From Daedaleopsis sinensis (taxonomy: Eukaryota > Basidiomycota > Agaricomycetes > Polyporales > Polyporaceae), in assembly GCA_033807695.1 (NCBI GenBank), contig CM066310.1:3038001-3102000 (forward strand): a stretch of DNA of 64,000 nt. The letters run 5' to 3'. Numbering within the stretch: position 1 is the first letter of the stretch; each line of letters opens with the position of its first letter. The notes under the pieces are model-generated. The model saw only the letters and a program-made list of their open reading frames with translations. It did no database searches and was not told where the DNA came from. Positions 1 through 38,978 of this stretch are shown here, one piece after another. Position numbers and translations under genes: made by a program.

Positions 1-453
1 AACATGGGGCCAAACGAGGTCGCCGTGACCGGTGCTGGCGAGGGGAGGTTGGGACTGGGACGTTCATTGTCCGTCCGCACACACAAGTCCCGTTGCAAGT
101 AGTGCGGGCACGGCCCACGGCGTCTTCCGACGCCGCCTATGGTAATGTTCCGGCGGGGACCGGACATACTTAGATCAGCCGTGGCCTCTCCTGGTTAACA
201 GGGACTCAGGGTCGAGTCAGAACGTCTCGCATGGAAGCGGTAAGAGTTGACAGGCGCATAACTAGCCCTGGCCGAGGGACCCAGGAGAAGGCAAGGCCGT
301 CTTCCAGGTTCTCCTCCACTTCAGTGGCACGGTTCGGTTTACGAGCTACCGCAGCATCCACGATTCGCTCGTTGCCGTTGGAAGTATAAGTTCAAGTTAG
401 TGCGCCGCGATAGCCATTCGCAAAGTCCACCATCCCCGCGACCGACTCCAACC
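1..453. other. Upstream flank of the first ATPase gene
   Basis: I see no convincing coding exon in this stretch. It should contain the promoter of the ATPase gene that starts at 454. By analogy with the three complete pairs further right, a divergent coiled-coil partner gene would be expected to begin about 0.3-0.5 kb upstream, which places it at or beyond the left edge of the window; I cannot see its start here. Confidence 0.4.
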
Positions 454-2977
454 ATGGCCCAACTTCCACCGACCTCCGCCCGCAAGCTCGTCTTGAGCAT
501 CGATGTCGGGACGACTTTCTCAGGGATGTCGTACGCGATCATGAGCAAGGGCGACAACCCGGACATCAAGACTGTAACACGGTCAGTAGATGTGGTCGAC
601 TCCGACACTTCCCCGCTGATGATTCTCCTAGATACCCAGGGCAGGAGGACCGCGCGGGCGACTACCGCATCCCCACCATCATCTACTACCGCAAGGACGG
701 CAGCGTCCATTCGGTCGGTGCACAGGCGGCGTCAGAGGATCTCGAAATGGAGCCCGACTTCAAAGACCTCGTTCTTTCTAATTGGTAAGTTGCCCTCGCC
801 AGCGTCCGCGTTCGCTATTTACATGCCCGCATCGCGCCACGTAAGGTTCAAGCTCCATCTCCGACCCCAACACCTCGACTCGGACGACATGAAGCGGCAG
901 AAGATCCCACCGCTCCCTGCCGGCAAGACCGTCATCCAAGTCTTCGCCGACTTCTTGAAGTACATGTTCTCCTGCGCGCGGACGTATATCTCGGAGAACC
1001 ACGCCAACGGCGAGGCGCTGTGGCTGGAGGTTCAGGACGAGGTCGAGTTCGTACTGCCCACCCTAACGGATGGGAGGGGCTGCAACAGAGCAAGATGCGC
1101 TCGGCTGCGATCCTCGCCGGGCTTGTACCAGACACCGACGCCGGCCGCGCGCGTGTACGTTTCGTGAGTGAGGGCGAGGCGAGCCTTCACTTTTGTGTTC
1201 AGAGCGGCCTGATCGCCGACTCGATCAAGGTGCGCACATACGTCGTTCGAGGTGACGATGTGTCTGATTCTCAACTCACGTGCTCTCTCCTGCAGGCTGG
1301 CGAGAAGATCATGGTCGTGGATGCCGGGGGAGGTACTGTCGACATCAGCACGTACTTCTTCAAAAAGGCCGAGCCGCTTGTCGTCGAAGAGCTCGCTGCC
1401 CCCGACTGTAAGTGTGACTTCCTCATGTTGGCCGAAGATGTTGGTTCATGTCTTGCATGATCACAGGCGTCATGCAAGGGTCAGCGATGGTCAACGCGCG
1501 CGCGGAAGTGTTCTTCAAGGGTACGTCCATTATATGCCTTTCTCTCTCTCAGTCATGCTGACGTTTGTGTGCAGATCGTCTAAAGAAGACCAAGTACGGC
1601 CGCGATGAGTCGGTCAAGAGTCTGATGAAAGAGTTCGAGAGGCAAGTCAAGCCGCTCTTCAAGCCCGACACCAAGCGCGTCTTCGTCGACACTCGGCTGG
1701 GTGGAAACGACCCTGCGGTGAACGTTAAGAACGGGCGACTCACGCTGACATCGTGCGTTTTAATCTACCGTGTCCTTCGGTGCAGAAGAGAAGCATCTGA
1801 CATGTGTCGTCGCATCACGTTGCAGGGAGGAGATGACTACGTTGTTCAAACCGTCGCTCGACGGGATAGTCAACTCCATCCGAAAGCAGTTCCAGAGCAC
1901 CCCAGAGACAGTCTCGGTCAGTGTAGCTGTCTACAGACTCGTATCACAAAGCTGATGTGGTGCGTCACCCAGACCGTCTTCTTGGTCGGCGGCTTCTCTG
2001 CCAATGCATGGCTCTACGCGAGCCTTAAGGAAGCTCTTGACAAGATGGGCCTCAGGCTCTACCGTCCGGACGCTCATATGTATGCCGTCGCCGCTCACTT
2101 TGCGCCTTCGCCTGCTGAGCTGACATCCCTCGTACTGCAGGAGCAAAGCGGTCGCGTCCGGCGCCGTGTCGTTCTACTTCGACCAGTTCGTCTCTTCGCG
2201 CGTGGTCAAGGCCACGTACGGCACCTCCGTCGCTGTGCCACTGGACCCTGAAGAACGGGACCACCTCGCACGCTTGCGGGCGGGCAAGTGCGCGCTGGGC
2301 CCGCTTGGGTTCATGTCGGACGCAGGGTGGTCGGCGATCGTTAAGAAGGTCGGTGGTGCATATCCAGTTCTCCACCAGGCGCATTTTGATCTTGCTTTGC
2401 ACCGCTCTGGGATTGCAGGGCACGCGCGTGCGTGACGGCGAGGAGTTCGTCCGGACGTTCGTCATCTCGAGTGGCTCGGCTGCCGGCGCCATGGAGGTCA
2501 CGAAGGAGATCGCGGTCTACACCGGGGAGAAGAAGGAGCCTGTGTGGACGGACGTCGAGCCGGGTGAGCTTCCCCCGCACTCACGCCTCTGCTATGTTCC
2601 TGAATTTTCTCATGCTGTGTTGCCTATAGAGAAGTTCAAGCGTCTGTGCGTCGTCCATGGCGACATCACGAAGGTGACCCCGATTGTCGAGCCCGGCATC
2701 ATGGGCATGCCCGTGTATCTCAAGCAAATTTCGGTCATCCTGCGCTATGGACCCGAGATCGAAGCCCAGATCAGCTGGCAGGAGGACGTGAGTAGCTGTG
2801 TAACCTGCTTCTAGTTGTGTGTTATAGATGTGCTAACGATCGATGACCGTCCTTAAGGGCAAAGAACAACGGTAAGCCACTAGGGCTATGTTACTTTGAG
2901 CCGTGCTCTGATACATTTCCTGATACAGCGGACCCGCTCAAATCGTCTACGATGATGTTTCTAGCAGCTCCAAATAG
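454..2977 (+). CDS. HSPA12-like Hsp70-family ATPase, with an apparent frameshift
   Basis: Member of the actin-like ATPase (Hsp70/HSPA12-like) superfamily. Seen: phosphate-1 loop IDVGTTFSGMSYAI near residue 17, phosphate-2 loop VVDAGGGTVDIS, adenosine-site segment FLVGGFSANAWL, then the family's C-terminal half (SKAVASGAVSFYFDQF, VSSRVVKATYG). About twelve exons joined by short GT-AG introns; the last exon, after 'GKEQR', gives GPAQIVYDDVSSSSK and stops at 2975-2977. The start ATG is at 454, placed by alignment with the paralogues at 21572, 26436 and 34876. Oddity: at about 1054-1058 the reading shifts by one base. The other copies read FVLSHPNGW there, while this one reads FVL then needs a -1 shift to continue as HPNGWEGLQQSKM. 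All other exons are in frame, so this is either a young pseudogene or a one-base sequence error in a CCC run. No coiled-coil partner is visible to its left within the window. Confidence 0.8.
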
Positions 2978-3350: not shown

Positions 3351-3479
3351 CGCGCTTCGTCGGAATAGACGCCGGCCACGGGCGCGTGTGGGCACGATAG
3401 ACGCCGGTTGCTACTTATCAATGATGTCTATTGCAGTTGTTGCTGGTCGTTAGTATCAAGGACTTGGTATGTAACCAAG

Positions 3480-19641: not shown

Positions 19642-21092
19642 TCAGACCATATTCGTGCCATCGTGCAGGACATTGTAGAGAACCATATCTAAGACGACTT
19701 TGGGCTTAATCAGAACGGTTGAGCGGACACCCTCAGGCGTCGCTTCCTCCTTCGTCAAGCCAACTTGTGTTGTGCAAACAACGTGGCCAGCTTCAACGGG
19801 CGCACCGCGCCTTGGGTCGGCCCACTCGTCCTCCATAGCTTCAGCATCGAACGCAACGCTCGGATCGGCCTTTTCGAGAACCATGTCGCACGACACGACG
19901 CCTTCTCCAGCAATGCGCTGAAACTCGAGGGCGATGTTGACGATGTTGACAAGAGCGGCACCGAATCCGTCCCGGACGGCTCGCCCGATAGTCACACTCT
20001 GTCCGACTACTCCACCTGCGAGGAGTATGTCTGTGATCTCCTGTCGAAGCGATCGTGCATGTCTCTGGACCTCCTTTGACCTGTCATCTACGAGAACACC
20101 AACGTGGGACCGGCTGAGGACTCTCCATCTTGCAGCGACGGACTGACGCTCTGAGATATTTGCCAAGAATATGATCAGCGTCGCACGCTGTACTACCCAG
20201 AGTACGTACCTCGTTTACGTATCCGCTCGTAGATCTCGTTCAATAGCTCATCCGCTCTGCCCTGACGGTCCCACGTGGTTGCCAACCACCCCACGTATGC
20301 GGTCATGCATGCCTGAAGCGCCGTCGTCACGAGCAAGGAGTCCTGCGTGTGGTCGACGGAGTAGAGGGAGGAGATAAAGGACGGGTCTAGGTATCCTCGG
20401 CTTTTAAGCCGTTGCTGGGCTTCTTTGGCCGCGCCGCTCTCCGTGTGGCGGTCGAAGCGGAACTGCGGGGAATCGGCGATCCTGTTCGCCGTCTGGAAGA
20501 TCTCCGAGTTGAGGTGCCGGACGACGTTCTGCACCTCGGTGGCAGAGACGTTGTCGACCTTCGTGAGGAACACCTGGGCCTCCTTCAGCTCCGCGGTCCG
20601 CGTCTCGAGGAGCTCCATCGTCTTGCGCTGCTCGCTCTCCATGCGTGCGTTCGCCCGGCGCAGCTCCGCGATCCCCGACCCGCTCCCCGCGCCGTCGCGC
20701 TTGGCCTGTTCCAGCTCCTCCTTCAGACGCGCGACTTCCATGGAGGTGGTGTGCTCGTGATGCGGGGAATAAGCTCGCTCATTCCTCATCGTCTCCAACA
20801 TCTTCCTTGCCTGTTCGACATCTGCTTCCCTCTCCTGCAGACTCTCCTCCAGTAGTTGACCTTGACGAGTCAGAGCCTCGATCGCCTTCCTTTGCCTGGC
20901 GAGCTCCTGGTCCTTGGCCTTCAGTGCGGCGCAGAACGCTGGAATGTCGCGCTCGTCGACCGATTCCAGCCTTCGGCGGCTCCCGCGGTGGCTGCTCCTG
21001 GTTTTCGCCACTGCGTCATAGGTTCTGGACATGCAGAGATTTGGGATGCTGACGACGTAGTGGAAAAAAGCTAAGATGGGTGCGGGAATCAT
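19642..21092 (-). CDS. Coiled-coil partner protein, copy 1 (pairs with ATPase at 21572)
   Basis: Two exons. Exon 1 starts at ATG 21092 (MIPAPILAFFHYVVSIPNLC, a hydrophobic N-terminus) and is followed by a long heptad-rich coiled coil (KDQELARQRKAIEALTRQG to MESEQRKTMELLETRTAELK), then the shared segment FLTKVDNVSATEVQNVVRHL. After a phase-1 intron, exon 2 begins RQSVAARWRVLSRSHVGV and contains GVVSCDMVLEKADPSVAF and STVLIKPKVVLDMVLYNVL. About 460 residues. It has the same layout and intron position as the genes at 24665, 29396 and 35332. I do not recognise the family. The hydrophobic start could anchor it to a membrane. Divergent from the ATPase gene with 479 bp between the two ATGs. Confidence 0.8.
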
Positions 21093-21571
21093 CGTCCAGC
21101 AATGGAGGGAGCGGTGGTCAAGCGGTCGATGGTCACCGGGGTAGTCATGCTCGTGCTCATGCTCCGCAAGGCTACAGCAGCATCGGTGCGTGGATACACG
21201 TAGGATGCGGAGAGTTTGGGTATGACGAACAGATGGTAGCGGCGTGGAAGTCATCTCCGGGGACTTCCTGCCAGTGACATTTGAAGGGTGGGCGATATTA
21301 CGCTCTTCCTGCCGCGTTTACAGTGGCCGGTTCCCTCGTGCATTGTGTCGAACACAAATGAGAGGCACAGGTGCAGATCTCGTGTCATTGGTGTGTTGGA
21401 GCATAGACTTCTGACCCCTGTTCGTTTACCGCAGCACTGCCTAGGCTTCCTGCGCGGAGGGCAAGATAATGGCCTGCGTTCTCGCCTGATCATAAATCTG
21501 CCCTCTGTGCAAAGTTCACCCTCCGCTTCGACTCACGGTGCACTATTTCGGGCCCTCTCTTCAGATTAATC
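21093..21571. promoter_or_regulatory. Shared divergent promoter, pair 1
   Basis: 479 bp between two divergent ATGs (coiled-coil gene to the left, ATPase gene to the right). No canonical TATA box stands out; I see no convincing heat-shock element array. Confidence 0.6.
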
Positions 21572-24083
21572 ATGGCCCCGCTCAAAGCTTACGCTGGACT
21601 ATCTCGCAAACTCGTCCTTGGCATCGATGTTGGTACAACTTATTCTGGTGTCTCCTACTCTATCCTCGATCCCAGCGAAGTACCCAAAATCCTTGGGGTG
21701 ACTCGGTGCGTGTCCGAAATACGCGACGAGTCGTACCACTGACAGACCTGAGAAGATGGCCCGGTCAAGAGAAAGCCGGTGACACGAAGATTCCTTCCAT
21801 TCTGTACTATCGCCCGGACGGGACGGTGCACTCCGCCGGTGCTGAGGCCGCCATTCCCGGTATCGAACTGGAGGCCGAAGATGAGGATCTCTTTCTGGTA
21901 CAATGGTACGTTCGCACCCTACGACGAGCTCCATAGATTGTCGTTGACGATGTATCGTGCTGCAGGTTCAAGCTCCACCTGCGTCCCCAGCATCTCGACT
22001 CTGAAGAGGTCAATAGACGCGATCTCCCACCCCTACCTCCCGGGAAGACCGTGAAGCAGGTCTTCGCCGACTTCCTCCAATATTTATACGAGTGTGTGCG
22101 CAGACACATCTCAGACGCGCACGCGAACGGGGAGAGCCTGTGGAGCTCCCTCAAGGACAACATCGACTTCGTCCTCTCCCATCCAAACGGCTGGGAAGGC
22201 GCACAACAGAGCCAAATGCGCGAAGCCGCTGTCATGGCCGGACTCGTACCAGATACTGACGCGGCACTCACGAGAATACAGTTCGTAACAGAAGGAGAGG
22301 CTAGCTTGCACTTCTGCATACAGAGCGGGTTGACATCGGAGTCAGTAGAGGTAGGTGTGAGAGCACCCGGGCCCATTTGACAGTCTCGATTCACGCTCAT
22401 GATACATTCGCTTCGCGTGATAGACGGGGAAGAGCGTCATGATCATCGACGCTGGCGGAGGGACGGTCGATATCAGCAGCTACGCATTCGTGTCAACTAC
22501 TCCGCTGGTAGTCGAGGAAATCGCTGCGGCAGAATGTGAGCGTTTTCATCTCTTGTACATGCGGCCGAGGTTGCTGATATTCGGTCAGGTGTGATGCAAG
22601 GCTCGACAAGGGTCAATGTCAGGGCGGAGAAATTCCTGAATGGTGAGCAATGATTTCGGTTGCTTCATTTCTACTGACGACGTCTGACGATCGTTACCTC
22701 TTTATTAAACAGAGCGGTTGAAGAACTCAGCCTATGGAAACGACGAGGACATCAAGACCATGGTTGAGTACTTCGACAAGACCACCAAGCCGTTTTTCAA
22801 AGATGCGAACGAGACCACCTATATCAAATTCGGCTCTATGGGATGTAACGATCCGAAGGTGAAGATACGAAGAGGGCAGCTCCTCTTGACAGGGTATCGT
22901 CTTTCTTCCTGATCTGATACGGCATTGTGACAGCTCTTTCAATAGGCAGGAAATGGTGTCGTTCTTCCAACCTTCTCTGGATGGCATTGTCGCAGCTGTC
23001 CAACGTCAACGTCAGGCCGCGTCTCGCCCAGTCTCGGTAACGTATTTAATGACCCTGTCGGATCGTGACCGTTAATCCTGCTACATTACAGACCGTGTAC
23101 TTTGTCGGTGGATTTGCAGCTAGTCCATGGCTGCATGCAAACCTTCAGAGTATCATGGGTTCTCTAGGTCTGACACTTTGTCGGCCCGATACACAAACGT
23201 AAGCGTGGTTCGTTTTCATGAGTACTATCACTGTTGATCGCTCGTACAGCAACAAAGCTGTCTCGGAAGGCGCGGTGTCTTTCTATCTAGACCACTTCGT
23301 ATCCGCGCGGGTAATGAGGAGCACGTACGGTGTCACCTGTAACGTCGACTTCGACAAGTCAAACCCCGAGCACGTGGCTCGCGCCCGGGCGAGAGTCGTC
23401 CGACCATCAGGTCGGGTGGTTCTGCCGAACGCGTTTTCGTCGATTCTTACGAAGGTGCGCCAATATTCCGTGAACAGATCTTGGTAACACTACTTACGTG
23501 GATTTGTAGGGAACGCAAGTCCAAGAGAAGCAAGAGAAGTCCCGAAGCTACTTCAGGGAAGCACGCGAGCCTAGGATGCTCAACCGCATCGCGACGATGG
23601 TGATCGCTTACAAGGGCAACATCTCGGAGCCGCACTGGCAAGACATGGACCCAGGTACATTGAACATTGGGGCTGCATGTGAGCATAAGGCCCGATCGCT
23701 CACGGATTTCGTATCTCAGACTATTTCGTCCCTTTGTGCACTATCCATGCGGATACGTCTGCGGTCAAACGGACCCCGAGGGATGGACCAGACGGACAGT
23801 TCTTCGTGCAGGTGTACGACATTGTTCTGATATGCGGGTTGACAGAGCTAAAGGCGCAAATTAGCTGGACGGATAACGTGAGTAGATCTCGCTTCTACAT
23901 TGCTCGATCCACGCAAATTGACAGACATCGACGATCTCGTATCTCTTCATCAATGGCAGGGAGAAGAGAAAAGGTCTGTACGCTCGAATGTACACGAGAT
24001 GATGCGCAGACACTAATTTAGTTGACAGAGGTCCAGCAACTGTTGTATATGATGATGATCCAGAAGAACATCGCTGCCAGTAA
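21572..24083 (+). CDS. HSPA12-like Hsp70-family ATPase, copy 2
   Basis: Intact multi-exon gene of about 600 residues starting MAPLKAYAGLSRKLVLGIDV. ATPase signatures: DVGTTYSGVSYSI, IIDAGGGTVDISSYAF, YFVGGFAASPWLH. Further family landmarks are DFVLSHPNGWEG, TRVNVRAEKFL, RPDTQTNKAVSEGAVSFYLD and the C-terminal exon RGPATVVYDDDPEEHRCQ. Introns fall at the same places as in the other three copies. HSPA12-type proteins keep the Hsp70 nucleotide-binding fold but diverge in the substrate half, so a classical chaperone role cannot be assumed. Shares a promoter with the coiled-coil gene at 19642-21092. Confidence 0.87.
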
Positions 24084-24664
24084 TATTTACTAGCAGCAGT
24101 TGTCGTTGCATTCAACCATTGGTACTTGCGCTCCTAACATAATCTCTCAATACATCGTCGTCATCCATCCCCATATTCATATTACGGCAAGCAGCGATAT
24201 GCTCGTTGAAGTCGTGAACGTCGTTCACTATCTTCGTGCATGCCCGATTGTTTGAAAGCATTGCATACAGCATGTTCATTGCCACCAGTCCCCGCGTACG
24301 CTCGATACATGGTTGGACAAGTGCTCTTCAGGACTAGCTGGAGTCGCTGCAAGTCATTCGAAAGCGACCATCAAAGATACCCAGGGGTTGCGCCTGCGCC
24401 ACCTGTGTAGGTCCGTGATTAGTAGCCATAGCGAGGTTGTGGCCACTTCACATGCGCCGACGTTGTGAATACTTGCCTCTACACTTCGCGAGATTCACTT
24501 CAAGAGTCCTGAGGCAAGGCCAAGTCAAGATACGCCACCGATGAGATCTCTGACTCGAGTAGATAGCCGGCGCACTAGTAGCAATTATCGTTTCTCAAGT
24601 TAGTTCTTCCAGCAAATGATGTGGTATAACGTCACTCACATTTATCGACAACCCACTTGCTAAA
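24084..24664. other. Intergenic stretch between convergent 3' ends
   Basis: Between the stop of the ATPase at 24083 and the stop of the next coiled-coil gene at 24665. No exon, RNA gene or repeat supported. Confidence 0.45.
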
Positions 24665-26120
24665 TTATTCTCGTAGCTCCTCAAGCATGGTGTTGACCAC
24701 GACGATCGGTTCCCGCAACATCACTGTCTTCAGCCTTCCTCCGACGTCCTTGAGATTCTCCTCTCCGAATCCAGAATGTAGCACCTCCACCCTTCTCAGT
24801 CCCATCTGTATCGTGCCGATAACTGATGCGTCCTTAGCGACAGGTCTTCCGATCTCTTCCAACTTCATGAGGGATGGGTCAAACGGCCTTCCTGGCGGTA
24901 CCGCCTCTACGTGGAAGTCTCGCGAAAGTACGCGTCTGTGGGTGACTTCGCAGAATCGGCGAGCGAGTTGCGCGATCTCCTGGAACTCGGCATGTGCCAC
25001 TTCCTGTAACTCAGCTTTGACAGCGAGAGGTTGCCACGAGTCGGAGACTCCGCAGAGTGTCAGGATCATTGCGCTACGATCTAGAAGATCGTGCTCTGCG
25101 GCGGCTAGGGCCTGAGATGCATCATGGTTTACTGCGCAGCACGCTTGGATGTAGGTGTGAGATAGAGCTCGCCATTTTCCCGACACAGAGCGAGGTTCTA
25201 GAGAAGCTCAACGTTCAGTATAACATACCGTTCAGAGAGGTTGGTGTATGCGTACCGTTCGCCATCATGTGCTCATATCCACTTCGGAGCAGGTTCTGCT
25301 CGGACTCCGGATGGCCTTTGACTCTCCACATCTCACACCAGCTCGTTGCGAAAGCTACTATGAGCGATTGCAAAGACGTTTGGACGAGAGCGCCTTGGTG
25401 AACTTCCTTGTAGTCACCTGGAGATCGGAGACCGTTCAGCAGGTCGCGACCAAGGACCCTGGAAGACTCGAGGAGGGTGATGACTTGGTCTTTCATCTGC
25501 AGGCTATACTCCGCACTGCCGATACGCGATTGGAAATGGTCCGTGATTCTTGCCGACACTGAGTGGATGTTGACATTCAAAGTCTCGATGATGCGTATAA
25601 CCTCAGTATCTGTGATGTCGTCCACACTGGACAGATAAGTCTGCGCTTGGCGGAGCTCTGTAGTCCTTGTCTTGAGAAGTTCCTTCGTCGTTTGATGATT
25701 CTGCTGGGAGACTGATAGGGCCTGCTGAAGCTCATGAACTCGCGCCGTGGTGCGTTCCTGTACTTGGACCAGTGTTTTCCTTGTGCGGTCGTGCTGCTGG
25801 TGGAGTCTTCGCACCTTCTGACGGTTGGTCTGTTTTTCTACGCACAGCGTTTGCTCCAGCCAGTTGGCATACGCCCTGGACTCTCTCTCGCGCTGTCGCG
25901 TCCAATAAAGCTCTTTTTCCTTCTCGTGCAACTGGTTTCGGATGAAAGTCATCTCCTCTTGCAGTCTCCTGGAATGATTTGAAAGGTTGATGGTGGGTAT
26001 GTGGCTTTGTTCTCTCCGTCGAGGCTCCCTGGCTGGCTCCTGCGACAAGGAAGCTTGTTCGACAGTTGTTTCGCTAGTGGTGAAGAAAAGGGAGAGTACT
26101 CTGCGGGGCACGAAGTTCAT
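24665..26120 (-). CDS. Coiled-coil partner protein, copy 2 (pairs with ATPase at 26436)
   Basis: Two exons, about 460 residues, start at 26120 (MNFVPRRVLSLFFTTSETTV). Long coiled coil (EEMTFIRNQLHEKEKELYW, VRRLHQQHDRTRKTLVQVQE, NHQTTKELLKTRTTELRQAQ) leading into the shared segment YLSSVDDITDTEVIRIIETL. Exon 2 opens EPRSVSGKWRALSHTYIQ and ends TVLLREPIVVVNTMLEELRE. The phase-1 intron (after MMANG) is at the same place as in the other copies. The N-terminus is more basic and less clearly hydrophobic than in copies 1 and 3. Function unknown. Confidence 0.8.
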
Positions 26121-26435
26121 AGTAGTACTCAGTGAGTCTACTGGCTCAAACGTTGGAGGCAGCCGTAGACAGGTGGAGACTCGGATAGAGCTTAGCTTGG
26201 GGATCCTAGTGCTTCAACATGGACAAGTTGTCGGTCGGTTGTGCGTTTATTATGGTGTATTTGCTCACGGTCACTGGCAGTGGAAGACGACCCTGAGTCC
26301 TAGTATTAGCTAGCAAGATCTCAGGGCTGCAATGTTTGCCAAACAACTTCGAGTCATATATAACGCTAGATAGGACCAGATTCATTGGAACCTACACACA
26401 TTAATATTGCTGTCGCCCCCTTTTCTACCCTCGTT
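26121..26435. promoter_or_regulatory. Shared divergent promoter, pair 2
   Basis: 315 bp between the two ATGs, the shortest of the three. A TATATAA box at 26357-26363 faces the ATPase gene, 73 bp before its ATG. Confidence 0.65.
26357..26363 (+). promoter_or_regulatory. TATA box of ATPase copy 3
   Basis: TATATAA at a normal distance (73 bp) from the ATG at 26436. Confidence 0.55.
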
Positions 26436-28987
26436 ATGCCTGTTTTCCAGCCCTACAGAGGGGTGATTCGCACACTGGTTCTCGGATTCGATGTGGGCAC
26501 GACATATTCTGGGGTCTCGTATGCTATTCTTGATCCAGGGGAGATACCTAGCATTCATGGGGTTACGCGGTGAATACTGTCATGATTCTGCTCTTCAAGG
26601 CTAGCGAGGCTTCAACGATTGCTCATTGTCTCCCTCCTCAGCTTTCCGGGTCAAGAAAACGCTGCGGGCGACTCCAAGATACCGTCAATAATCTACTACC
26701 GACCAGACGGGACTGTGCATTCAATTGGTGCAGAAACAACACGTCCCGGCATTGAGCTTGAAGTGGAGGATGAGCATCTGATACTTGTTGAATGGTAAGT
26801 ACGTCTCACTCGTTTACTGTTGAGATGACATAAGAACAGCAATGATAGGTTCAAATTCCACCTCTTCCCTAACCGGATGAGCTCAGAGCACCTGAAGCAA
26901 CGGGACCTGCCTCCCCTACCCTCTGGAAAAACCGTACTCGATGTCTTTTCTGACTTCCTCCGATATCTGCTCTCTTGTTCACGTCGCTTCATATGTGAAA
27001 CACACGTCAATGGCGATGCGTTGTGGGTATCCATGGAGGACAGAATTGACTTTGTCTTATCCCATCCCAACGGATGGGAAGGACTACAACAAGAGAAGAT
27101 GCGCCAGGTAGCAGTGATGGCCGGACTCGTTCCAAACAATGTTGTCGGACATAAGCGCGTACATTTTGTCACGGAAGGAGAAGCTAGTCTGAGTTTCTGC
27201 ATTCAAAGCGGATTGACGAGCGAGACTCTGCGGGTAGGTCTTGGTTTGAAGTGGCGACCATCACTAACTTATAACCCTTCATATACAGGATGGTAAAAGT
27301 GTCATGATCGTCGATGCAGGTGGAGGAACCATAGACGTCAGTAGCTACGTTTATTTGTCGACCTCTCCAGTATCTGTGGAAGAGGCCACGGTTTCGGACT
27401 GTGAGTGATGCTATTTAATCTCAACTTCTCACAAGCACTCATCCGTGTCTCGTTCATTGACAGGTATCCTGCAAGGGTCTACTTTTGTAACTCGTCGGGC
27501 GGAGCAATTGCTGAGAGGTCTGTTAATTTGCAAGCCTCAAACCTGACCACTACCCGACGTTGATCATATTATCTCAGTCCGCCTTCACCATTCGCAATAC
27601 AACAACGAAGACGATATCAGATACATGCTGAAGTACTTTGACTCACACGCAAAGCCGGTTTTCAAGGACGACAAAGAGGTGTCGTACATCAAGTTCGGAG
27701 CAATGAATTGCAACGATTACGCTGCCAACATCCGTCGCGGACAACTTGTGTTAACAGGGTGTGTAAAGCGGTCTTTCTTGATTTGAATACATCTCATCAC
27801 CTTTCGTCAGATCCGAGATGGCGTCTTTCTTCAAGCCTTCTGTAGACGCAATTGTCAGTATAGTGAAGAAGCAGCGCGCTGGCGCTTCTCACAAGGGAAA
27901 AGTATCTGTGCGTATCTGAGTCACCATGAAATGGTGGTTCGACTAATTGACATGCATGAGTCAGACTATCTTCCTCGTCGGTGGATATGCTGCAAGCCCT
28001 TGGCTTTACACCTCTTTGAAGTCCAAGTTGAACAAACTTGGGTTCACTCTGTACCGCCCTGATTCTCACACGTAAGCAATTCAGCGAAGCCTGAGAGACA
28101 GCGGGTGTCCTGTTGACTGATGTCACAACAGGAATAAGGCCGTTGCAAATGGAGCGGTGGCCTACTACATCGAACATTTTGTATCTGTCCGGATTGCGAA
28201 AGTTACATACGGTATTGAGATCGTAGTCGACTACGACCCCATGAATCCGGAGCACTATGCGCGGCGTCACCAAAGATATGCTCGGCCAAGTGGCCGTGTC
28301 GTTCTCCCGAACGGTTTCTCCACAATCCTGAAAGTGGTGAGAATTCAGTATTTTAATGACTCTTCATATCAATTTTCTACGGAAGCTGATCATCACGCGT
28401 ACTAAATCTACAACAGGGAACCAGTGTAAGGGTGAACGAGGAAATATCTCAACCGTACACCCAAGAGGCGCGTGAATCTCGGATGCTCAATCATATTAGC
28501 TCCGAGATACTCTGCTACAGAGGCCGTATACCGGGCTATAATCCGAGATGGATCGACGTAGACCCAGGTGAGATTCCGATATCTTACAGCACCTCACTCA
28601 ACTCATAAATTGTTGAACACAGAGCTATATACTCCGTTGTGTACGATTCAGGCAGATACGTCACAAGTTTACAGGCGGGCCAAGCATGGACCAAATGGCA
28701 TCTACTATGTTCAGGAGTTCAAGATAGTCCTGTTTTATGGCATGACTGAGCTTCGCGCACAGCTCAGCTGGATAGAGAAAGTAAGTCACTATAGCAGTGA
28801 TTGATATGATATATGATCATGGCCGTAGTAACGTACTGGATATTGTCACAGGGCGTTGAGAAGCGGTGCGGATCTAATGGTGTAGCGGCCGACGTGTTCA
28901 TAATGCTTACGCCTGGTTCTTTCGCTGCTTTACAGTGGACCTGCTAGGATTGTTTACGACAACGACCTTGACATTTCCCGAGTGTAA
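26436..28987 (+). CDS. HSPA12-like Hsp70-family ATPase, copy 3
   Basis: Intact multi-exon gene. The start MPVFQPYRGVIRTLVLGFDV at 26436 is chosen because copy 4 begins MPSLQPYKGTVRKLVLGIDV at the same place. ATPase signatures: DVGTTYSGVSYAI, IVDAGGGTIDVSSYVYL, FLVGGYAASPWLYTSL. Shared landmarks: DFVLSHPNGWEGLQQEKM, SHTNKAVANGAVAYYIEHF, KVTYGIEIVVDY, and the tail exon RGPARIVYDNDLDISRV ending at 28987. It resembles copy 4 more than copies 1 and 2 in the N-terminal exon and tail. Two residues differ in the second phosphate loop (Ile for Val). Paired with the coiled-coil gene at 24665-26120. Confidence 0.87.
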
Positions 28988-29395
28988 TCGGATTTTCAAC
29001 AAGAACTCAAGCCGTTCAGTCAAAGGAGACCTGATCAAGCAAGCGTTCAACGTTAAGTGGCAGCGTCTTCGTTGGTTTTGCGGATCTACCAGCATGAGCC
29101 GAGATTTTCTTTCATTTCCTGGCCAGGGGTATAGTATGTCAGGGAACTCGAACGTGTACAAGGTAGGTAAACCGCTCTGTCTTATCATGCTGTAACCCTC
29201 ACAGCGTTTCCAATCCGGCAGTCTCAAAGGTTCGGGCTGCCTGCCAATAGATATAGATCGTACCAAGCTTGTAGAATCCGAGGATCAAGTCAATCATGAG
29301 CAACCTCGAGCAGTACACATAGGGTCATCGTAGCATAAGCATTAAACAGTACACGGTGAGGTACAGTACATGCGGTCAGAAGTCCTATAGTCCGA
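28988..29395. other. Intergenic stretch between convergent 3' ends
   Basis: No supported gene. An 87-codon plus-strand frame from 28935 overlaps the last exon of the ATPase in another frame and is treated as chance. Confidence 0.4.
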
Positions 29396-30786
29396 TCATG
29401 TGGACGGCCCAGCCGTCGACGGGCTAGCATCCTCCTCGTCGACAAGTCCGAGCTCGTACACGATCGTGTCAAGTACGACCTTCGGTCTCAGCAACATCGT
29501 CGTCACCACCCCATCCTCCCCCGCTTCCCCTCCCTCATCCACGTCCACTTTCCGCGAACGACGGAGGCCGAGATCAGCCGTCGAGAGGACGCGTGGAATG
29601 ATCCCCGGAGGGCCCGGAGAGGCGATCTCGCCGTTGTAGATGTCCTCCATCTGCTCCGCGTCGTAGACCTCGTCGATGCGCACGACGAGCACCTCGTAGT
29701 CGCAGCTGACGACCTCCTCCCCGATCATCCGCTGCAGGTCGAGCGCGGTGCGGACGATGGTTTCGAGGTGCTGGAAGTACTCCGCGTGCACCTCGTCTGC
29801 GGTCACCGCCCCGCCCGCGACGGCAAGCAGGTCCGCGATGCGCTCGGCGAGCTGGTGCGCGAAGCCCGCGGCGAGGTCGCGGCCGTTATACAGGCGCTGC
29901 TTCGAGTACTTGCGTGCATGCGCGCGCCATTGCGCGCACGCGAGCTGGGACTCTAGAAGCACCGTGGCGGTGAGTATGGCATGCATGCTCGTCAGATGAC
30001 GGAGCCAAGACGCGTACCTGAGCGACGCATCTGCTTGTACACCCCTGTGAACACGGACTTGCTCTGGTGCTGGAAGTCCCACGCGGACGCGATCTCCGCG
30101 GCGAAGCCGACCATGTCGGCCTTGAGCGCGATGTCGATGAGGATGGGGTCGTCCTGGTGGTGGATGGACTCGAGCAGCTCGGCCATGACGGGCCCGACGG
30201 CCTCGCGCGCGCGTTCGAAAGCGTGCGTGACCCGCTCTGGATCGGGCGACTCCGCGACACGGAAGGCGTTCGTCACTTGGGACGCAACCTCGGAGATCTC
30301 GAAGTTCAAAGTCCGGACCATGTGCAAGACGACATCATCGACCGACCCAATCGTCGATCGCACGTCCGGAGCAGGCTCCGCGGGCAGGTTAGCTGCGTCA
30401 CTCGCCTCCCGCGATCCGTGCTCGAGGGTGAGACGCGTCTGTAGATCGCGAATCTGCTCGCGGCGGGCCGCCAGCTCCTCGTCCTTCTCCTGCAGGGCCA
30501 CGTCCTTCTTCTTCAGCTCGCGCCGTGCCAGGCCCTCCATCCGCCACCAGAACTCGGCCTCTTCCCGCCTCTTCTCTGTCGCGTTCGACGCGCTGTTCTG
30601 CACCGCCACCACTTGCTCCAGTAACCTCTCGCGTTCCGCCCTCGCGTCGTCCACTGACTCCTTGAGCTGCGCGTTCTGCTTGCGCATCCGGTGCGCGATC
30701 ACGCCGGCGTAGCCAATCGTTGTGATGACGAGCGCGAGCTTGCACGCGACCGCCGCGAAGGAGACGAAGGAGCGCGAGGGAGACAT
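29396..30786 (-). CDS. Coiled-coil partner protein, copy 3 (orphan, no adjacent ATPase)
   Basis: Two exons, about 460 residues, start at 30786 (MSPSRSFVSFAAVACKLALV), with a clear single transmembrane segment LALVITTIGYAGVIAH followed by basic residues, then a coiled coil (KQNAQLKESVDDARAERERL, ELKKKDVALQEKDEELAARR) and the shared segment (SVDDVVLHMVRTLNFEISEV). Exon 2 opens ESQLACAQWRAHARKYSKQ and includes GEEVVSCDYEVLVVRIDEV and TTMLLRPKVVLDTIVYELG; the tail is Ser/Pro-rich. The same phase-1 intron is present. An upstream in-frame ATG at 30915 would add a proline-rich leader. GC is higher than in copies 1 and 2. Unlike the others it has no divergent ATPase gene upstream. Confidence 0.78.
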
Positions 30787-32346
30787 AGTCGCGATGGAAT
30801 GATGAGGGATCGGAGGTTGTGGCGCGTTCAGTGTGGAGGATGTTCCATTAGAGATGCCAGAAGGGAGGGAGAGGGATGGACCGTGCTGCGGCTCAGACAT
30901 ATGGTGGGCGGACACGCGTCCTCCGCCCCGTCTGCAGTGCCTCCGTCAAAATAGCGCGCGGGGCGGCGTGCATGCCGCCTGTTGATGGGCACGGAGACCG
31001 AAGACGCACGCACCGCTCGGCCTACGACGAGCTGGAGCTCGCGACGGCAGCGTTTGGGAGCGGAAAGAGCGGGCACGACGCGGATGCCGGTTGATGGATT
31101 GGAAGAGGCCGTGGTCCAAAGGTGCCTTCTAGAGGCAGGATCCTGTGTGAGATTCCGTTTTAGCGTTGAGAATGGCACGGACATGCGCACCCCTTAAGTT
31201 ACGACGCCCTAGATGATGTCTCAGCCCATGAGGTGTGGGCGCGGGTCAAGCGAGCACCTCCACGCTCTTCAGTGCTCGTGCCCGTCGGAACGGTCAACCG
31301 GTATCCGTTGAGCCTAAGCATAGAGTACACGCGGCTGCAGCGTGGTGCACTGGCGCTGTGGGAGCACTGTCTGAAAAGACATCTAATGCGTACAGAAGGT
31401 CTCGGTAGTGTCAACCGTGTGCGTTACGATGGCATATCGAGGGTAACAGTCTGCGGAAGAGTAAGAAGTTGATACAAATCAATTCGACGACTGATCATAT
31501 GGGCGCCCGAGTCCCAGTTGAACACAATACGTACTCGACTATTGGTATCTCGTATGTCTTCCTGTATCACATCTTGATCGAAAGAATGCGTGTACCTATG
31601 TGTAGCAAGCTGCAAGCTGCTAAACTTGAATTGTCGGACGCGAAGTCTTCAACGGACGGCGGCCGCCAGCTTCAACCGAGGCACCGGAACTTCAGTATAC
31701 CAGGCTGCGTCACGGACGGCGATAAGTGGCTCACTCACCTGTACATAGTCCGACTTGGAGAGCTGAGGAGTCGACCCGACAAGGGTGTCGAAAGCCGAGG
31801 CTGGTGACCGGCGGCGTCCGAGCAAGTGGTACTATTTGTCGTTGTTTGGACTCGGTACTTACTGCGCAGCGGTGAATTGAGGCTGGGTGGACCAGGCCTC
31901 TATCCTACACTTGCTTCCAACCTGGACCAGCTCGTACGGCAGGAGAACCGACGCTCTAGCCGTAGAGACTCACAACGCCTCAGCTCTCAGAGTCTAGCCT
32001 TGTGACTCATGGGCCGAACCTCCAAACGAAGGACAGCATTTGGGAGAATGTGTAGATCTAGACCGACCCAGCGGACGGCGTTCACCTGAAGACTTCTGGG
32101 CACCCCACTGAATCACGGGCACCCAAATGGATGTTCGCGAGAGATCATGGTCTAGACAACGATCAGTGTATTTTCTTCAGAATGCCGCTCAACACCATAT
32201 GCAGACACACGCCATGTTGCGAATGATAGATAGTCTGGACGACGGTCTGTATTGTGAGCATTCCCCACGTGCAAGCATATGAACCCATTCAGTTGCGAAG
32301 AGAATCGCAGGAGCGACGGGCGTGGAGATGCTCAGAGCAGTCGCCG
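30787..32346. other. 1.56 kb gene-free stretch where a partner ATPase would be expected
   Basis: By analogy with the other pairs an ATPase gene should start at about 31.1-31.3 kb on the plus strand. I find none of its signatures (DVGTTYSG, DAGGGTVD, SHPNGWEG) in any frame, nor any other supported exon. Confidence 0.55.
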
Positions 32347-34876
32347 TTACTGAGAGACCTCGAGGTCATCGTCATAAACGATCTTCGCCGGTCCACTGCG
32401 AAAGGTTGGTCAAAACGGCGACCCTACCATGATACGAGTAACGCTACTCACCGCTTCTCCACTCCCTGTACCGTCGGCGATAGTTTGAGCGACATGAACA
32501 GCGTGATCATATCACACACTCACGTTCTGGACCCAACTTAGCTGAGCCTGGAGCTCCGTCATGCCGCAAAGCAAGATGATCTTGAACTCTTGGATGTAGT
32601 AGAGGCCCTGAGCGCCGCTATGAACTTGATACGACACTTTCGACGTGTCGGCGGACACGGTGCACAGTGGCGTGAACAATTCTTCAAAGCATCGTTTTAT
32701 CAGGCAGCGAAGGGTTATCTGACGTCCAGAGCATGATACGTACCCGTGTCAGCATCGAACCAATGCGGGTCGGACTGGCTTCCTCGATAGCATAACACGT
32801 CTTGGATGATGTTGCGGAGCGTCTTGGGGTCTCGAGCCTCGATGGTATACAGTTGCGAGATCTCCTCGTTCTCACGCACGCGGGTCCCCTATGGCGGCAA
32901 TGATCATTAACTGGATCAGCGAGCGGAAGCGGCCATGAACAAGCCGACAGCTGACCTTTTTCAATATGGAGGAGTAGCCGCCTTTAATCATGTTGCGTCC
33001 CGACGGGCGAACGAACAGAGTCCCGCGGCGCAGGTAGTGCTCGGGGTCGTTCGCCTTGTAGTCCACGACAACCTCAATACCATACGTCATCTTCATGACG
33101 CGCGCGGAGACGAAGTGCTCGAGGTAGTGGCAGACTGCGCCGTGCGCAACTGCTTTATTCCTGTGCCGCAACCACAAATTGTGAGCTTCGACACGGCGAG
33201 CGACTCTGTAACACGGAGAGGCACTCACGAGTGCGAATCCGGACGGCAGAGGTTCAGGCCGAGTTGGCCGAGCTTGTTCTTGAGGTTGCCGTAGAGCCAC
33301 GGGTTGGCCGCGAAGCCGCCAACCAGGAAGACAGTCTACAATCGCCAAGGTTACTCGACGTGAGGACGAAGAAGCAAGGGAGACAAGAACGACGATTGAC
33401 GTACCATATTGACTTGAGAGCGGATCACGGCCTGGCGCTGCTTCTGCACGACGCTGACAATCGCATCGAGCGACGGCTGGAAGAACGCTGCCATCTCGGA
33501 CCTGGGGGAACAGTCAGCCGGACGGGGCACGATATGTGCATGCTGCAGCGGACATACCCCGATAGCACGAGCTGCCCGCGTTTGATCTTCACCGCAGCGT
33601 CGTTGCAGCTCATCGCCCCAAATCTGATGTACGAGGGCTCCTTCTCGTCCTTGAATACCGGTTTAGTCGCTTGATTGAAGTATTCTAACATAGTCTTTAC
33701 GTCCTCATCGTTCCCGTACGCCGAGTTCGCGAGGCGCGCTGACATGAAATAGTCTCAATAAGTGTACGACGAAGATGTCGCAAACAAAGGCGGCTAACCT
33801 TTCAGAAACTGCTCGGCACGCACGTTCACTCGAGTCGAGCCCTGTAGGATACCTACAAGGGCAGCTAAGCTACAGAACTCGAGTATGATAGATGGGCGAG
33901 AGAACTTACAATCCGGAGAGGTAACTTCTTCGACCGAGACAGGGGCCGTAGATAGGAACGTGTAGCTACTGACGTCGACCGTCCCACCTCCAGCGTCAAC
34001 TATCATCACACTCTGTCCGTTCTAGCGTGAGGATCAGCATCATACCCGACGTGGTCGTCAGAAGCGAAAGACGCACCCGGATAGTTTCAGTCGTCAACCC
34101 GCCCTGGATGCAAAAGTTCAAGCTCGCCTCGCCCTCGGTGACAAAGTGAACCTTGTCGTGGCCGAGACAAGTGTCCGAAACGAGCCCGCCTTTGACGGCA
34201 GCTTGGCGCATTCTGCCCTGCTGGAGACCCTCCCAGCCGTTCGGATGAGAAAGCACGAACTCGATCCTGTCTTGGAGGGAGTCCCAGAGACTGTCACCAT
34301 TGGCATGTGTCTCGCGTATGTAAGTCTTCGCGCAGGCAAAGAGGTACCTCAGAAAGTCCGCGAAGACGTCGACGATGTCCTTGCCAGACGGGAGCGGTGG
34401 AAGGTCGCGCCGCTTGAGTTCGTTAGAGTCGAGTCGCTCGGGACGGAGGTGCAGTTTGAACCTTGAGAGGAGAGCGGTGTTGTCAGACACCAGTAGGACG
34501 TATCGGGATGTAATCCAAAGTCAACGTACCACTCTACGAAGATCAACTCATGGTCCTCAGCTTCGAACTCCATACCAGGAGCGGCAGCCTCGGCTCCGGC
34601 AGAGTGGACTGTGCCGTCTGGACGATAGTATAAGATGGAGGGGATTTTTGAATCTCCCGCGTGGGCCTCTTGCCCCGGAAATCTGAATGACCGAGCGAGT
34701 CAGTTACTGGCAGAGGGCGACCGCACATGCGGACTCTCGTACCTCGTCACCCCATGGATTTTCGGGGGCTCCCCGGGGTCGAGGATCGCATAGGCGATAC
34801 CGGAGTACGTGGTACCGACGTCGATGCCCAGAACGAGCTTGCGAACGGTACCTTTGTATGGTTGCAAGGACGGCAT
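32347..34876 (-). CDS. HSPA12-like Hsp70-family ATPase, copy 4
   Basis: Intact multi-exon gene in reversed orientation, start MPSLQPYKGTVRKLVLGIDV at 34876. ATPase signatures: DVGTTYSGIAYAILD, IVDAGGGTVDVSSYTFL, VFLVGGFAANPWLYGNL. Landmarks: EFVLSHPNGWEGLQQGRM, GSTRVNVRAEQFLK, NKAVAHGAVCHYLEHF, MKMTYGIEVVVDY, and the tail exon RGPAKIVYDDDLEVSQ ending at 32347. Intron positions match copies 1-3. Divergent from the coiled-coil gene at 35332, so the pair is an inverted copy of the module. Codon usage is GC-richer than copy 3, similar to its partner. Confidence 0.87.
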
Positions 34877-35331
34877 AGTGGATGATGATGAGGTGCAGAA
34901 ATTGAGAGGGATAGGCTGAGTCCTCGGACTTTGCGTCCGGCCGGCTTTTCAGGACGTGACCGCCGCTCCCACACCTCCGTGCTGCGGCAAGGGCGGTCAA
35001 GCACCATGGAAGCCCGTTAACGGTCGGCATTTTTCACATCCGTGCCTTATGTTAGACAGTCCGTGGCCCAAGGTGGGCAAATGAAGGTCGGTACGAACGC
35101 TTTGAGTGCGCCACCAGTGGCCCACCACTCGACGTTCGTTCCGAAAGGCTTAGTCTTCCCTTGTGGCACCTCCGGTCTTCGTCACATTCGAGTAAAGTGG
35201 ATCTGTGTGCGGTAGATAGTGCGCCCCGTCTGGGAGCGTGAGAGCGTACCATCCCCAGAAGATGAACGTTCATTTGCACTCTTTCCCCCGCCTCCTCTAC
35301 AAGTCTCGTCTGCGCTGGGATCCCGGCTGGC
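34877..35331. promoter_or_regulatory. Shared divergent promoter, pair 3
   Basis: 455 bp between the ATGs of the ATPase (leftward) and the coiled-coil gene (rightward). No TATA box stands out on either strand. Confidence 0.6.
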
Positions 35332-36833
35332 ATGTTTCGTCTCTTCCTCGAACTCCTCCGCGTCATGCACCGATTATATGCAATGAGCAAGTTTCCCCTC
35401 AGCACTGGCACTCACCGGCGCAGTCGCGTAGACCAAGGGAAAGACACCGACTCGCTGCGTCGTGCTCGTGGGGATACCGAGCTGGTGCGGGCCCCGTGCT
35501 CGGCATGCGACAGCGCGAAGACAAAAATCGAGGCTCTCGAGGACGCGCTGAGAGACAAAGAGGCGGAGCTTGAGGAGCACAAGAAGAGGGAGGTGGACGC
35601 GAGTAAGGGGGCCGCCGCGCTCAAGCTACAGGCTGAACAAGACCACGCGACGATGGACAAATACAAAGCGGCGTACGTCAAGCTCAAGAAGGAGGCGGAA
35701 GACGTGCAGGGTCGCTTGTCCGCGGCGGGAGTCCGCGTCAGCCGTTCTGAGAGCCAGGTAGCAGACCTCGAACGCGCGCTCGTCGGCGCACAGCAGGAAC
35801 GGCGGAGCATGGGCACCATGCTCGAGACTAGGACGTCCGAGCTTCGCGACGCGCAGGCCTACCTCACGAAGGTCAGCGACGTGACTGACCGCGACGTGCT
35901 CGGTATCGTGGAGAGCATCAACTCCCGGATCTACCAGACCGCCGCGACGATCGCCGACGTGTTTCAATCGCGCTGCCACTCGGGGCAGGATGCCAGGCTC
36001 GTGGAGGATGCGGGGAAGCGGCTCGAGCGCGCGGGCCTCTTGAGCTCCGGCCTTGTACATGCCCTGCGCAACACGGACCATCGCGAGGATGACGTTCTTG
36101 TCCAGGTCGCGATCCAAGGAGTCATGGTAGCCTATACGCGATGGCTCTGTGGGACATGGGACTTCAAGGTCGATTCGCAAGGCGTCTTGAAGGAGGTCCA
36201 CCAGCAGATCAGAGAGAACGGTTCGTGTGCACGTCTTCATCTGCGCCTTGCGGGCCCTTACGCGTCCCGACAGAACCTCAGTCGGTGTCCGGCAGGTGGA
36301 GAGCTCTAGCGCGTACCCACGTCAAGCGCTTCGCCCCCGCAGCACAAGGATTAGAGGCGATAGCGCGAGACGGATTGGCGGAGCACGTCGTCGATGTCCT
36401 CCTCACCTGCGGGGTCCCGATGATGCGCCAGCATCTCCTGGCTGACGTGAGACGCACCTTCGACGATGCGTTCCACGAGATTGCGCACCTCGCGCTCGAC
36501 TTCCAGCGCGCCACGGGCGAGGAGATCGTCTCTCGAGACCTCTTCGTCGTGTTTGGGAGGAGCGGCAAGGCGTTCGATCCCGAACGGATGACGGACCAGT
36601 GGGCTGACCCTAAAAAGTCTCATCGCCGGAGCAGGGTGGAGCCTCTTTCTGTTCTGTGCTCGACGCAGCTGGGGCTCGTGCGGGAGGAGACGACGAGCCA
36701 CGCGGACGCTGCGAAGGAGACGCGCTGGGAGCACTCGGCGACGGTGTTGCTCAAGCCGCAGGTCGTTTTGACGACGATGCTAGAGGAGCTGTGGAACGAG
36801 CAGGTCCATATGGATGGCATCGTCCGTACCTGA
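35332..36833 (+). CDS. Coiled-coil partner protein, copy 4 (pairs with ATPase at 34876)
   Basis: Two exons, about 470 residues, start at 35332 (MFRLFLELLRVMHRLYAMSK, amphipathic or hydrophobic). Coiled coil (SAKTKIEALEDALRDKEAEL, ATMDKYKAAYVKLKKEAEDV, RSMGTMLETRTSELRDAQAY), shared segment LTKVSDVTDRDVLGIVESIN, then RWLCGTWDFKVDSQGVLKEV. Phase-1 intron after QIRENG; exon 2 begins EPQSVSGRWRALARTHVKRF and includes ATGEEIVSRDLFVVFGRSGK and ATVLLKPQVVLTTMLEELWN. It aligns end to end by eye with the other three. A second ATG at 35392 (MSKF) is an alternative start that would remove the hydrophobic leader. Function unknown. Confidence 0.8.
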
Positions 36834-38978
36834 GGACGACAAGTTGTGGTACGTGGGCTGTCCAGTCCTATGGGGGGTCGAGGCATTGATAACAAGGTGT
36901 CGCAGGCTTGTCCGAATTCTTGTTTTCTTGTAACGCCAATAACGTATGACGTGCGGCTGAAAGGTCGGTGCGGCTGGAAAAGTCGGTGCGGCTGGAAAAG
37001 TTGGTGCGGCTGGAGCAGAGGGCTCGTCAAGTGGTGCAGTTGGTGGTGTACTCGTTCGTAACAAAGTTCATACCCCTCAAATTCGTCCTCGACGATCATT
37101 GCCTGAAAAGAGTGGCATGTTCGAGTCGGCGCGTACCTTCCTTACTAGAGTCGGTCTCAAGCCAAAAGAATGGTGGGTATAATATCTTGACGTAGCTATA
37201 TGCACTACAATATCACAGCGTAGCGGAGAGCCAGCTCCCGTCCCTACTGAAGTGAGTGCGGGACATGAGGAGCGGTATGCCTGCGGGCGCACCTTAGATC
37301 TGTACCACCACCTGTGCCCTCGGTAACCGTCGTCCTAAAGCCAACACTCTCCACCTAGCTTTCTGAGTTGCCTCTGAGCGCGAGAATACCTTCTTCTTCC
37401 CGTTCGAGATCTTTTGAAGAGGTCACCAAGGTCCAAGAGCCGACTGCGTGAGAGGACAATTATATCGTATTTTTCGGGCCTCGAGCTTCATAGCGTCCGA
37501 AGATCGAGTAGCGAGCCTATATCCGACATGGCGTGAGTGGAATATTGAATACGAGCAGCCAGCATAGAGAGAGGGGAATTGTGGAGAGAGTCAAGAGAGG
37601 ATGATGTGCCAGTGCGACCTGCAGGCCGCTACTATCGGCGCCTGACGCTGGAGCCATTAGGGTTAGGGTAAGGGGGTGCCGTGGTGGATAATTCCAAAAT
37701 TCCCCTTGTCTCCCCTAGGCAGACGATGAGGACCTATTGAACGTGGGGAGGGACGGTCCTTCAACAAATTCCCCTGCAAGTGAACTCTGGCAGCGTATCT
37801 ATGACCTCAAATATGAGCTGATTTCAGTGGTATATTCATGAGTAGATTGACCGATTAGGATGGGAGAGAGGTATAAAATGAGTAGGTATCTGTGGGTGCG
37901 ACTCGGAGTAACTTCAACAAGTACTAGTACTTACTAAACTTGTTGACCGTGATGTTTCTGCCTAAGACTAGTCCTATCGCTAATAAGATAGAGATACGCA
38001 CGAGATATAGAGGAGAGCTCTGCGTCATAGCAATGAATGAAAAGGTCTTACTGTTCGTCCATCACATTATGGCTGAAGGTCTCGGACCTGCGCATCTCAA
38101 CTTGAATCGTTCCACCCGGCGCATGGGTCCCCGCAGATCCCCACCTCAGACAGAACGACCACATACTCCAGTGAGGCGACAGATTCGAGCATCCAAGCGA
38201 CAACCACGTTTCGGTCCATCCTGTCAAAGTATCTATCCCGCAAGGGGGGTGGGCATCGGCGGGGGTAGCGACGGCGGGCCCGGGGCAAGGGGCGCGGTTG
38301 CCGTAGTCGGACGATGCATATGCTAGCCAGCGCGGTGTCGGTCTATGCAACCATTGTGAGCAAGCACGCGCGCGATCTCGTCACGGCAACTTGAAGGACG
38401 GCCGACTCCGGTGTCCTTAACGATGTATCTAGGGTATCTCACGGAATGTCCGCATCAACCTAGACAACGTAGGGCTGGAGGTATGTTCTGTCGTCAATCG
38501 ATGTAGGGAGAATCTGAGAGGTAATTGTCTTACCCTAGGAAGAACCTGAGGCGCGATAGTAGTGGTCGCTGGCAAGAGCAAATTTCATGCGGACGTTGAA
38601 TGGCATCCCGTGTAAACAGATCAGCATTGGCGCCAACTCGAGATAATAAGTATTCCAACGTGTGCGTACATCGTCCTCGGACGTACCTTGCAATTCACTT
38701 GTTTAACTGAGCAAGGGCAACATGTCGAACACCTTAGTGCCCGGTTCTACCATGACAATTACTTGAACTTATCGCATTCATATCTATGTTGTACTGTGCT
38801 CAGTTCAGAGGACGCTGTAAGGCAAGCCCACCCATCTACAGACAGGTTGCACTGTAGCCAACAGGCCGCCTCGGTCACCCGACCCGACGTGAGCAAGCAT
38901 TTGCAAACGGCTGTAAAGGACTAGTAAGTACTAGTAGAAGCAAGGAAACAATATACGCTGCTCACGACCACAGTACAA
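36834..38978. other. 2.1 kb gene-poor stretch
   Basis: No convincing gene. It holds an 18-bp tandem repeat (36950-37016), a TTAGGGTTAGGG dimer (37657-37668) and a small palindrome near 37915-37948. Short frames near 37940-38326 have no paralogue or splice support and I leave them out. Confidence 0.5.
36950..37016 (+). repeat. 18-bp tandem repeat, about 3.5 copies
   Basis: Units of GTGCGGCTGGAAAAGTCG with small changes, just downstream of the coiled-coil gene stop. Confidence 0.8.

Follow-up and report, generated by a model that had tools for sequence, protein, structure and literature searches.

Why do genes for an Hsp70-like ATPase and for a coiled-coil protein recur head to head in the genome of Daedaleopsis sinensis? 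The question is raised by a 64,000-nucleotide stretch of this genome (the window; contig 11, positions 3,038,001 to 3,102,000, in an assembly of 51.6 Mb and 24 contigs), which is touched by the ATPase genes h0 to h3 and the coiled-coil genes cc0 to cc4. The head-to-head pairing of the two genes was confirmed, and a pairing that appears to have been copied and kept suggests an unrecognised two-part protein machine. In what follows, the coiled-coil protein is referred to as the partner. The genes and the upstream regions that they have in common are as follows:

1..5, minus strand: cc0, the start-codon end of the partner gene of h0; the rest lies beyond the window edge, to about L058:1073
454..2977, plus strand: h0, predicted lidless Hsp70-like ATPase gene, apparently frameshifted once near 1050
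19642..21092, minus strand: cc1, coiled-coil partner gene, exons 21092-20210 and 20150-19642
21093..21571: common upstream region of h1 and cc1
21572..24083, plus strand: h1, predicted lidless Hsp70-like ATPase, 13 exons, 596 amino acids, intact
24665..26120, minus strand: cc2, coiled-coil partner gene, exons 26120-25256 and 25197-24665
26121..26435: common upstream region of h2 and cc2
26436..28987, plus strand: h2, predicted lidless Hsp70-like ATPase, 13 exons, 599 amino acids, intact
29396..30786, minus strand: cc3, solo two-exon coiled-coil gene, its product hydrophobic in an N-terminal stretch
32347..34876, minus strand: h3, predicted lidless Hsp70-like ATPase, 13 exons, 597 amino acids, intact
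34877..35331: common upstream region of h3 and cc4
35332..36833, plus strand: cc4, coiled-coil partner gene, exons 35332-36220 and 36274-36833, 482 amino acids

The three head-to-head pairs proposed in the initial annotation of the window were recovered at the same positions as intact spliced models, with 480 bp (h1/cc1), 316 bp (h2/cc2) and 456 bp (h3/cc4) from ATG to ATG. The cc4 model was merged from exon 1 of one source and exon 2 of another spliced alignment because the aligner added a doubtful extra intron at the start of the gene. Two further genes had been annotated as lone halves of pairs. One of these, h0, proved to have a neighbor after all, as cc0 starts 449 bp away; its ATG is probably the minus-strand one at window base 5, from which the protein would begin MFDIFKIF. 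The other, cc3, remained solo, with no ATPase match beside it between 28981 and 32350 at an E value of 1e-3.

Genome-wide, nine ATPase loci and ten coiled-coil loci were found by genome searches and profile checks of fetched loci; both counts are lower bounds because the genome searches score best candidates only. Six tight divergent pairs were present: the four named above, one at 2.968 Mb of contig 11 (306 bp from ATG to ATG) and one on contig 4 (464 bp), the start codons of cc0 and of the latter two partners being our choice among candidates. In a seventh pair, on contig 8, the genes are oriented as in the tight pairs with approximately 6.3 kb of other sequence intervening. Between the two contig 8 genes, L065:4793-7266 contains open frames that look like an insertion into the pair; by our reading, some of these are on the minus strand and include ATPase-like stretches. 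The remaining two ATPase loci appear to be broken, L059 by a gap of about 1.3 kb inside the gene and L063 as a fragment, and no partner was detected in the 6 to 8.5 kb examined around them. By eye, the broken L059 copy (L059:2646-6532) resembles the ATPase of the 2.968-Mb pair, and L063 resembles the contig 8 ATPase. PF00012 matches on contig 10 were considered as family members and ruled out, as the ATPase profile did not recognise them (best E value, 1.8).

With uniform placement of 9 and 10 loci in 51.6 Mb, 0.003 pairs within 1 kb would be expected, compared to the six observed. The copies are not independent observations because they are related by duplication, and the comparisons between species and between trees described below address this kinship. 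No flanking gene common to different pairs was found in the short flanks examined (0.4 to 4 kb). None of 155 open stretches in the window flanks had a non-self match to the window or the fetched loci, and the sole flank match between loci was 25 residues long (L057 versus L059). Thus, the unit appears to be two genes. No 10-mer was present in at least three of the four common upstream regions scanned.

The nearest relatives of the window proteins come from polypores. A Daedaleopsis nitida protein was 89% identical to h3 over its full length, and another was 81% identical to cc4 over 60% of cc4, the D. nitida record being partial. For the ATPase, the best 120 of 2,216 protein matches were considered, and pairing across species was assessed within the Polyporales. 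For the partner, 12 relatives came from a protein search with cc4, and a profile search on its conserved domain raised this to 95, with the 12 included. All 12 of the cc4 relatives are on a contig equal in size to one that carries a listed h3 relative; one of these contigs is only 7,374 bp long. Among the 55 partner relatives with a species name and a contig size, 28 have a listed ATPase of the same species on an equal-sized contig, which is not in itself evidence of adjacency. Ten partners from species with a listed ATPase have serial gene numbers that allowed a check, and for 7 of these (5 from Ganoderma sinense and 2 from G. adspersum) an ATPase has the next number. The genes alternate in G. 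sinense 03370-03373, where the assignment to pairs is ours. The other three (GSI_03390, V8D89_000820 and FIBRA_06817) have no listed ATPase at the next number; the FIBRA ATPases are 8 and 18 gene numbers from FIBRA_06817. Random placement of the coiled-coil homologues, which the initial annotation had named as a refuting outcome, was therefore not seen where placement could be checked. Viewed from the other gene, 41 of the 120 listed ATPases have a listed partner on an equal-sized contig. Scans seeded by two short motifs confirmed no relatives of the partner in viral or prokaryotic contigs and, for the ATPase, none in viral contigs.

The histories of the two genes were compared in 17 pairs (6 from this genome, 5 from G. 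sinense, 2 from G. adspersum, 2 from Daedaleopsis, 1 from Polyporus and 1 from Fomes). ATPase distances and partner distances were correlated (r = 0.76), a value reached by none of 20,000 free shuffles and by 15 of 20,000 shuffles within species. One Daedaleopsis pair had been chosen as the best matches of h3 and cc4, which biases toward agreement, and the other Daedaleopsis pair and the Fomes pair were matched through near record numbers; when these three were omitted, r was 0.82 (0 of 20,000 shuffles). The correlation was also found in the Ganoderma pairs taken by themselves (r = 0.92; 7 of 20,000) and in the non-Ganoderma pairs (r = 0.68; 21 of 20,000). The ATPase and partner trees have their main groups in common and disagree on the position of the Fomes and Polyporus pairs and inside Ganoderma; support is low at some nodes of the partner tree. 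In every one of 136 comparisons, the partner was more divergent than the ATPase, by a median ratio of 1.6. The initial claim that pairing was kept through duplication and inversion is thus borne out by dispersed copies, by other polypores and by two trees that largely agree.

The ATPase has an Hsp70-type nucleotide-binding fold in predicted structure. The model of a Daedaleopsis relative (pLDDT 89) aligns over its full length with DnaK and BiP in the ATP-bound state, and residues 425-590 are predicted to form a beta domain resembling SBD-beta. No SBD-alpha helical lid is present in the model, which stops after the beta domain, and 60 of 60 relatives have only 0 to 9 residues beyond residue 590. 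The residues of the phosphate 1, phosphate 2 and adenosine motifs are kept in 59 or 60 of the 60 relatives at each of 13 sites and in eight of the nine ATPase loci modelled in this genome. K98 and E205 are, by our own mapping of sites to Hsp70, presumably the catalytic lysine and glutamate. The ATPase is thus predicted to be an Hsp70 with an ATP site and SBD-beta, without the helical lid. Against the Pfam HSP70 model (PF00012), h3 scored 10.2 bits, below the cut-off of 20.6, with a gene model that retained one intron; the relative P0057 carries a precomputed PF00012 label. The Hsp70 likeness in the initial description of an HSPA12-like ATPase stands on predicted fold and ATP-site residues, and the HSPA12 label does not, as it comes only from the NCBI names of some relatives (P0059 and P0109, heat shock 70 kDa protein 12A or 12B).

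The partner belongs to what is, by sequence comparison, a coiled-coil protein family of Agaricomycetes with no common Pfam family found. Judged by genus, the 95 relatives represent Polyporales, Boletales, Agaricales and further Agaricomycetes. At an E value of 0.01, each Pfam family matched 3 of 56 relatives at most, and the 25 of 31 families shown were coiled-coil-like or scattered. Three of the 95 relatives carry discordant precomputed labels (PF27881, PF24161 and PF10473), and PF27881 was absent from our own Pfam scan of P0011. PADLOC and NCBIfam matches were set aside because they look like generic coiled coils, and no convincing fusions or extra domains were found in long relatives. The predicted model of the Earliella partner (pLDDT 85, with residues 1-54 mostly under 50) consists of a 114-residue helix followed by a helical domain and then a beta domain that ends in a helix. 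The coil noted in the initial annotation is thus present, but it is variable and accounts for about a quarter of the protein; the conserved part is the helical plus beta domain, with conservation in the C-terminal domain peaking at QSV-GRWRA. Foldseek returned nothing below an E value of 0.001 (best, 2.7e-3; probability, 0.23) and the top VIA rows were mostly long helices, so that the fold is left unplaced and is not presented as new. Mean hydropathy of residues 1-20 exceeded 0.3 in all eight starts examined from this genome, one of which is an alternative start. A value above 1.6 over 19 residues is a usual mark of a membrane span, and five relatives (P0152, P0157, P0166, P0168 and P0179) exceed it.

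The linkage has survived dispersal and inversion as well as speciation, the trees largely match, and no other common neighbor was found; this is most simply explained if the two products work together. Because the ATPase is a predicted lidless Hsp70 and the partner is largely helical, we favor a complex of ATPase and cofactor, similar to that of Ssz1 and Zuo1. Pairing, co-duplication, ATP-site residues and predicted folds are the observed basis of this interpretation, in which each gene encodes one part of a common machine, the first a lidless Hsp70 driven by ATP and the second a coiled-coil cofactor dedicated to it; we give this interpretation about an even chance. The partner would dimerise via its long helix and grip the ATPase with its conserved C-terminal domain; some family members may also be tied to a membrane by a hydrophobic N terminus. 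The partner could regulate the nucleotide cycle or stabilise the unlidded substrate domain, as Zuo1 does for Ssz1. With its own cofactor in each pair, copies might specialise on different clients while the ATPase stayed more conserved, and the common upstream region could balance the levels of both genes.

Several results weigh against a dedicated machine of this kind. Of the ten coiled-coil loci, three stand alone: cc3 and single loci on contigs 3 and 8. Four of the 55 named partners are from species whose listed ATPases are on other contigs, and 23 are from species without any ATPase among the 120. Conversely, 79 of the 120 ATPases have no listed partner on an equal-sized contig (P0122, for which no contig is given, is counted among the 79); here the ATPase may act alone, or a fast-changing partner may have been overlooked. 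With this genome's six pairs only, the correlation was not significant (r = 0.45; 1,246 of 20,000 shuffles). Pfam searches with 10 partner proteins, read up to an E value of 1, gave no J-domain, GrpE, BAG or Fes1 model. The hydrophobic N terminus is not universal: the hydropathy of residues 1-20 exceeded 0.3 in 22 of 47 relatives of at least 420 amino acids, with a mean of 0.05 across all 47. Heat-shock elements, allowing up to one mismatch, were found in none of the four common upstream regions scanned of the six.

The ATPases without a listed partner on their contig are also what would be expected if the two genes were once accidental neighbors, kept together by segmental duplication and a common promoter, with products that need not interact. 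Co-duplication by itself predicts agreeing trees, and divergent neighbors in compact fungal genomes often remain together. We nevertheless consider this explanation doubtful, as no flanking gene common to the pairs was found in the short flanks examined, yet both genes persist across contigs, orientations and genera, and both unpaired ATPase loci among the nine found appear to be broken, although the paired h0 is apparently frameshifted too. Still less probable is that the partner, instead of being a cofactor, serves the ATPase as substrate or as membrane tether. The long coiled coil, the hydrophobic N terminus in part of the family and the predicted SBD-beta of the ATPase would all suit such a role, but it is the C-terminal domain of the partner, not the anchor or the coil, that is most conserved, pointing to a folded surface for binding or regulation.

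Tight head-to-head linkage, amplification and broken extra copies would also be consistent with a self-recognition or cell-death module, in which the partner is a membrane-acting effector, the ATPase is its controller or antidote, and adjacency ensures that matching alleles are inherited together. Clustered gene pairs, NLR with effector and protease with gasdermin, are reported to operate in fungal cell death (PMC9815663), and the consistently greater divergence of the partner (all 136 comparisons) and its hydrophobic N terminus in part of the family fit this role. However, the gap in speed is modest in the closest comparison (h3/cc4 versus Daedaleopsis; 10.6% difference for the ATPase and 16.4% for the partner), solo partner genes exist, and no NACHT, death-fold or pore-forming Pfam domain is among the partner's listed hits, amyloid motifs not having been searched. 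It seems unlikely that the pairs form such a module. We are similarly skeptical of a previously undescribed two-component mushroom-fungus system in which the lidless Hsp70 controls a fast-changing, sometimes membrane-anchored partner, the two products of each pair fitting each other as a key fits its lock, with nonself recognition or the remodelling of membranes as possible functions.

If the machine of ATPase and cofactor is real, it would provide a first partner and a mechanistic handle for divergent fungal Hsp70s, a large group with no established role known to us, and a natural series of matched pairs in which specificity could be approached by swapping partners. The initial annotation knew of no earlier description of a linked coiled-coil partner, and none was evident among the open-licence papers listed on fungal HSPA12 and Hsp70 families and partners, RAC (the ribosome-associated complex), fungal incompatibility and HSPA12A structure, subscription papers and preprints being outside that scope.

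Elsewhere in the window, an open frame at 5282-6802 (plus strand) contains CxC6/CxC5 cysteine clusters associated with KDZ transposases (PF18721; E value, 1.9e-23), and a beta-lactamase-fold match at 41442-42566 (plus strand; PF00144; E value, 3.1e-22) is possibly a fungal serine hydrolase. A short interior telomere-like TTAGGGTTAGGG is located at about 37655, shortly past small GGTGCGGCTGG repeats near 36960-37020.

Among known systems, DnaK and GrpE offer one likeness, an Hsp70 with a cofactor, here a putative one, in which a long helix, a helical bundle and a beta domain follow in that order, which is the layout of GrpE. By the names of the records P0059 and P0109 alone, the ATPase resembles HSPA12A and HSPA12B, which are also divergent Hsp70s; to our knowledge, no linked partner is known for HSPA12. 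A 2008 survey reported HSPA12 homologues in vertebrates only, among the genomes that it covered (PMC2266713). The pairs are clustered two-gene modules like the NLR/effector and protease/gasdermin pairs of fungi (PMC9815663), whose Pfam domains, in contrast, are not among the listed hits here. Ssz1 and Zuo1 of RAC are the remaining comparison. Ssz1 is reported to bind ATP without hydrolysing it and Zuo1 to complete its SBD-beta (PMC7083937), whereas the ATPase described here retains the expected ATP-site residues. In addition, the genes here are paired and amplified, and the partner is not considered a RAC member because no J-domain was found in it (10 proteins, Pfam E values up to 1). What the two systems would have in common is a lidless, non-canonical fungal Hsp70 with a dedicated partner, the role proposed here for the coiled-coil protein.
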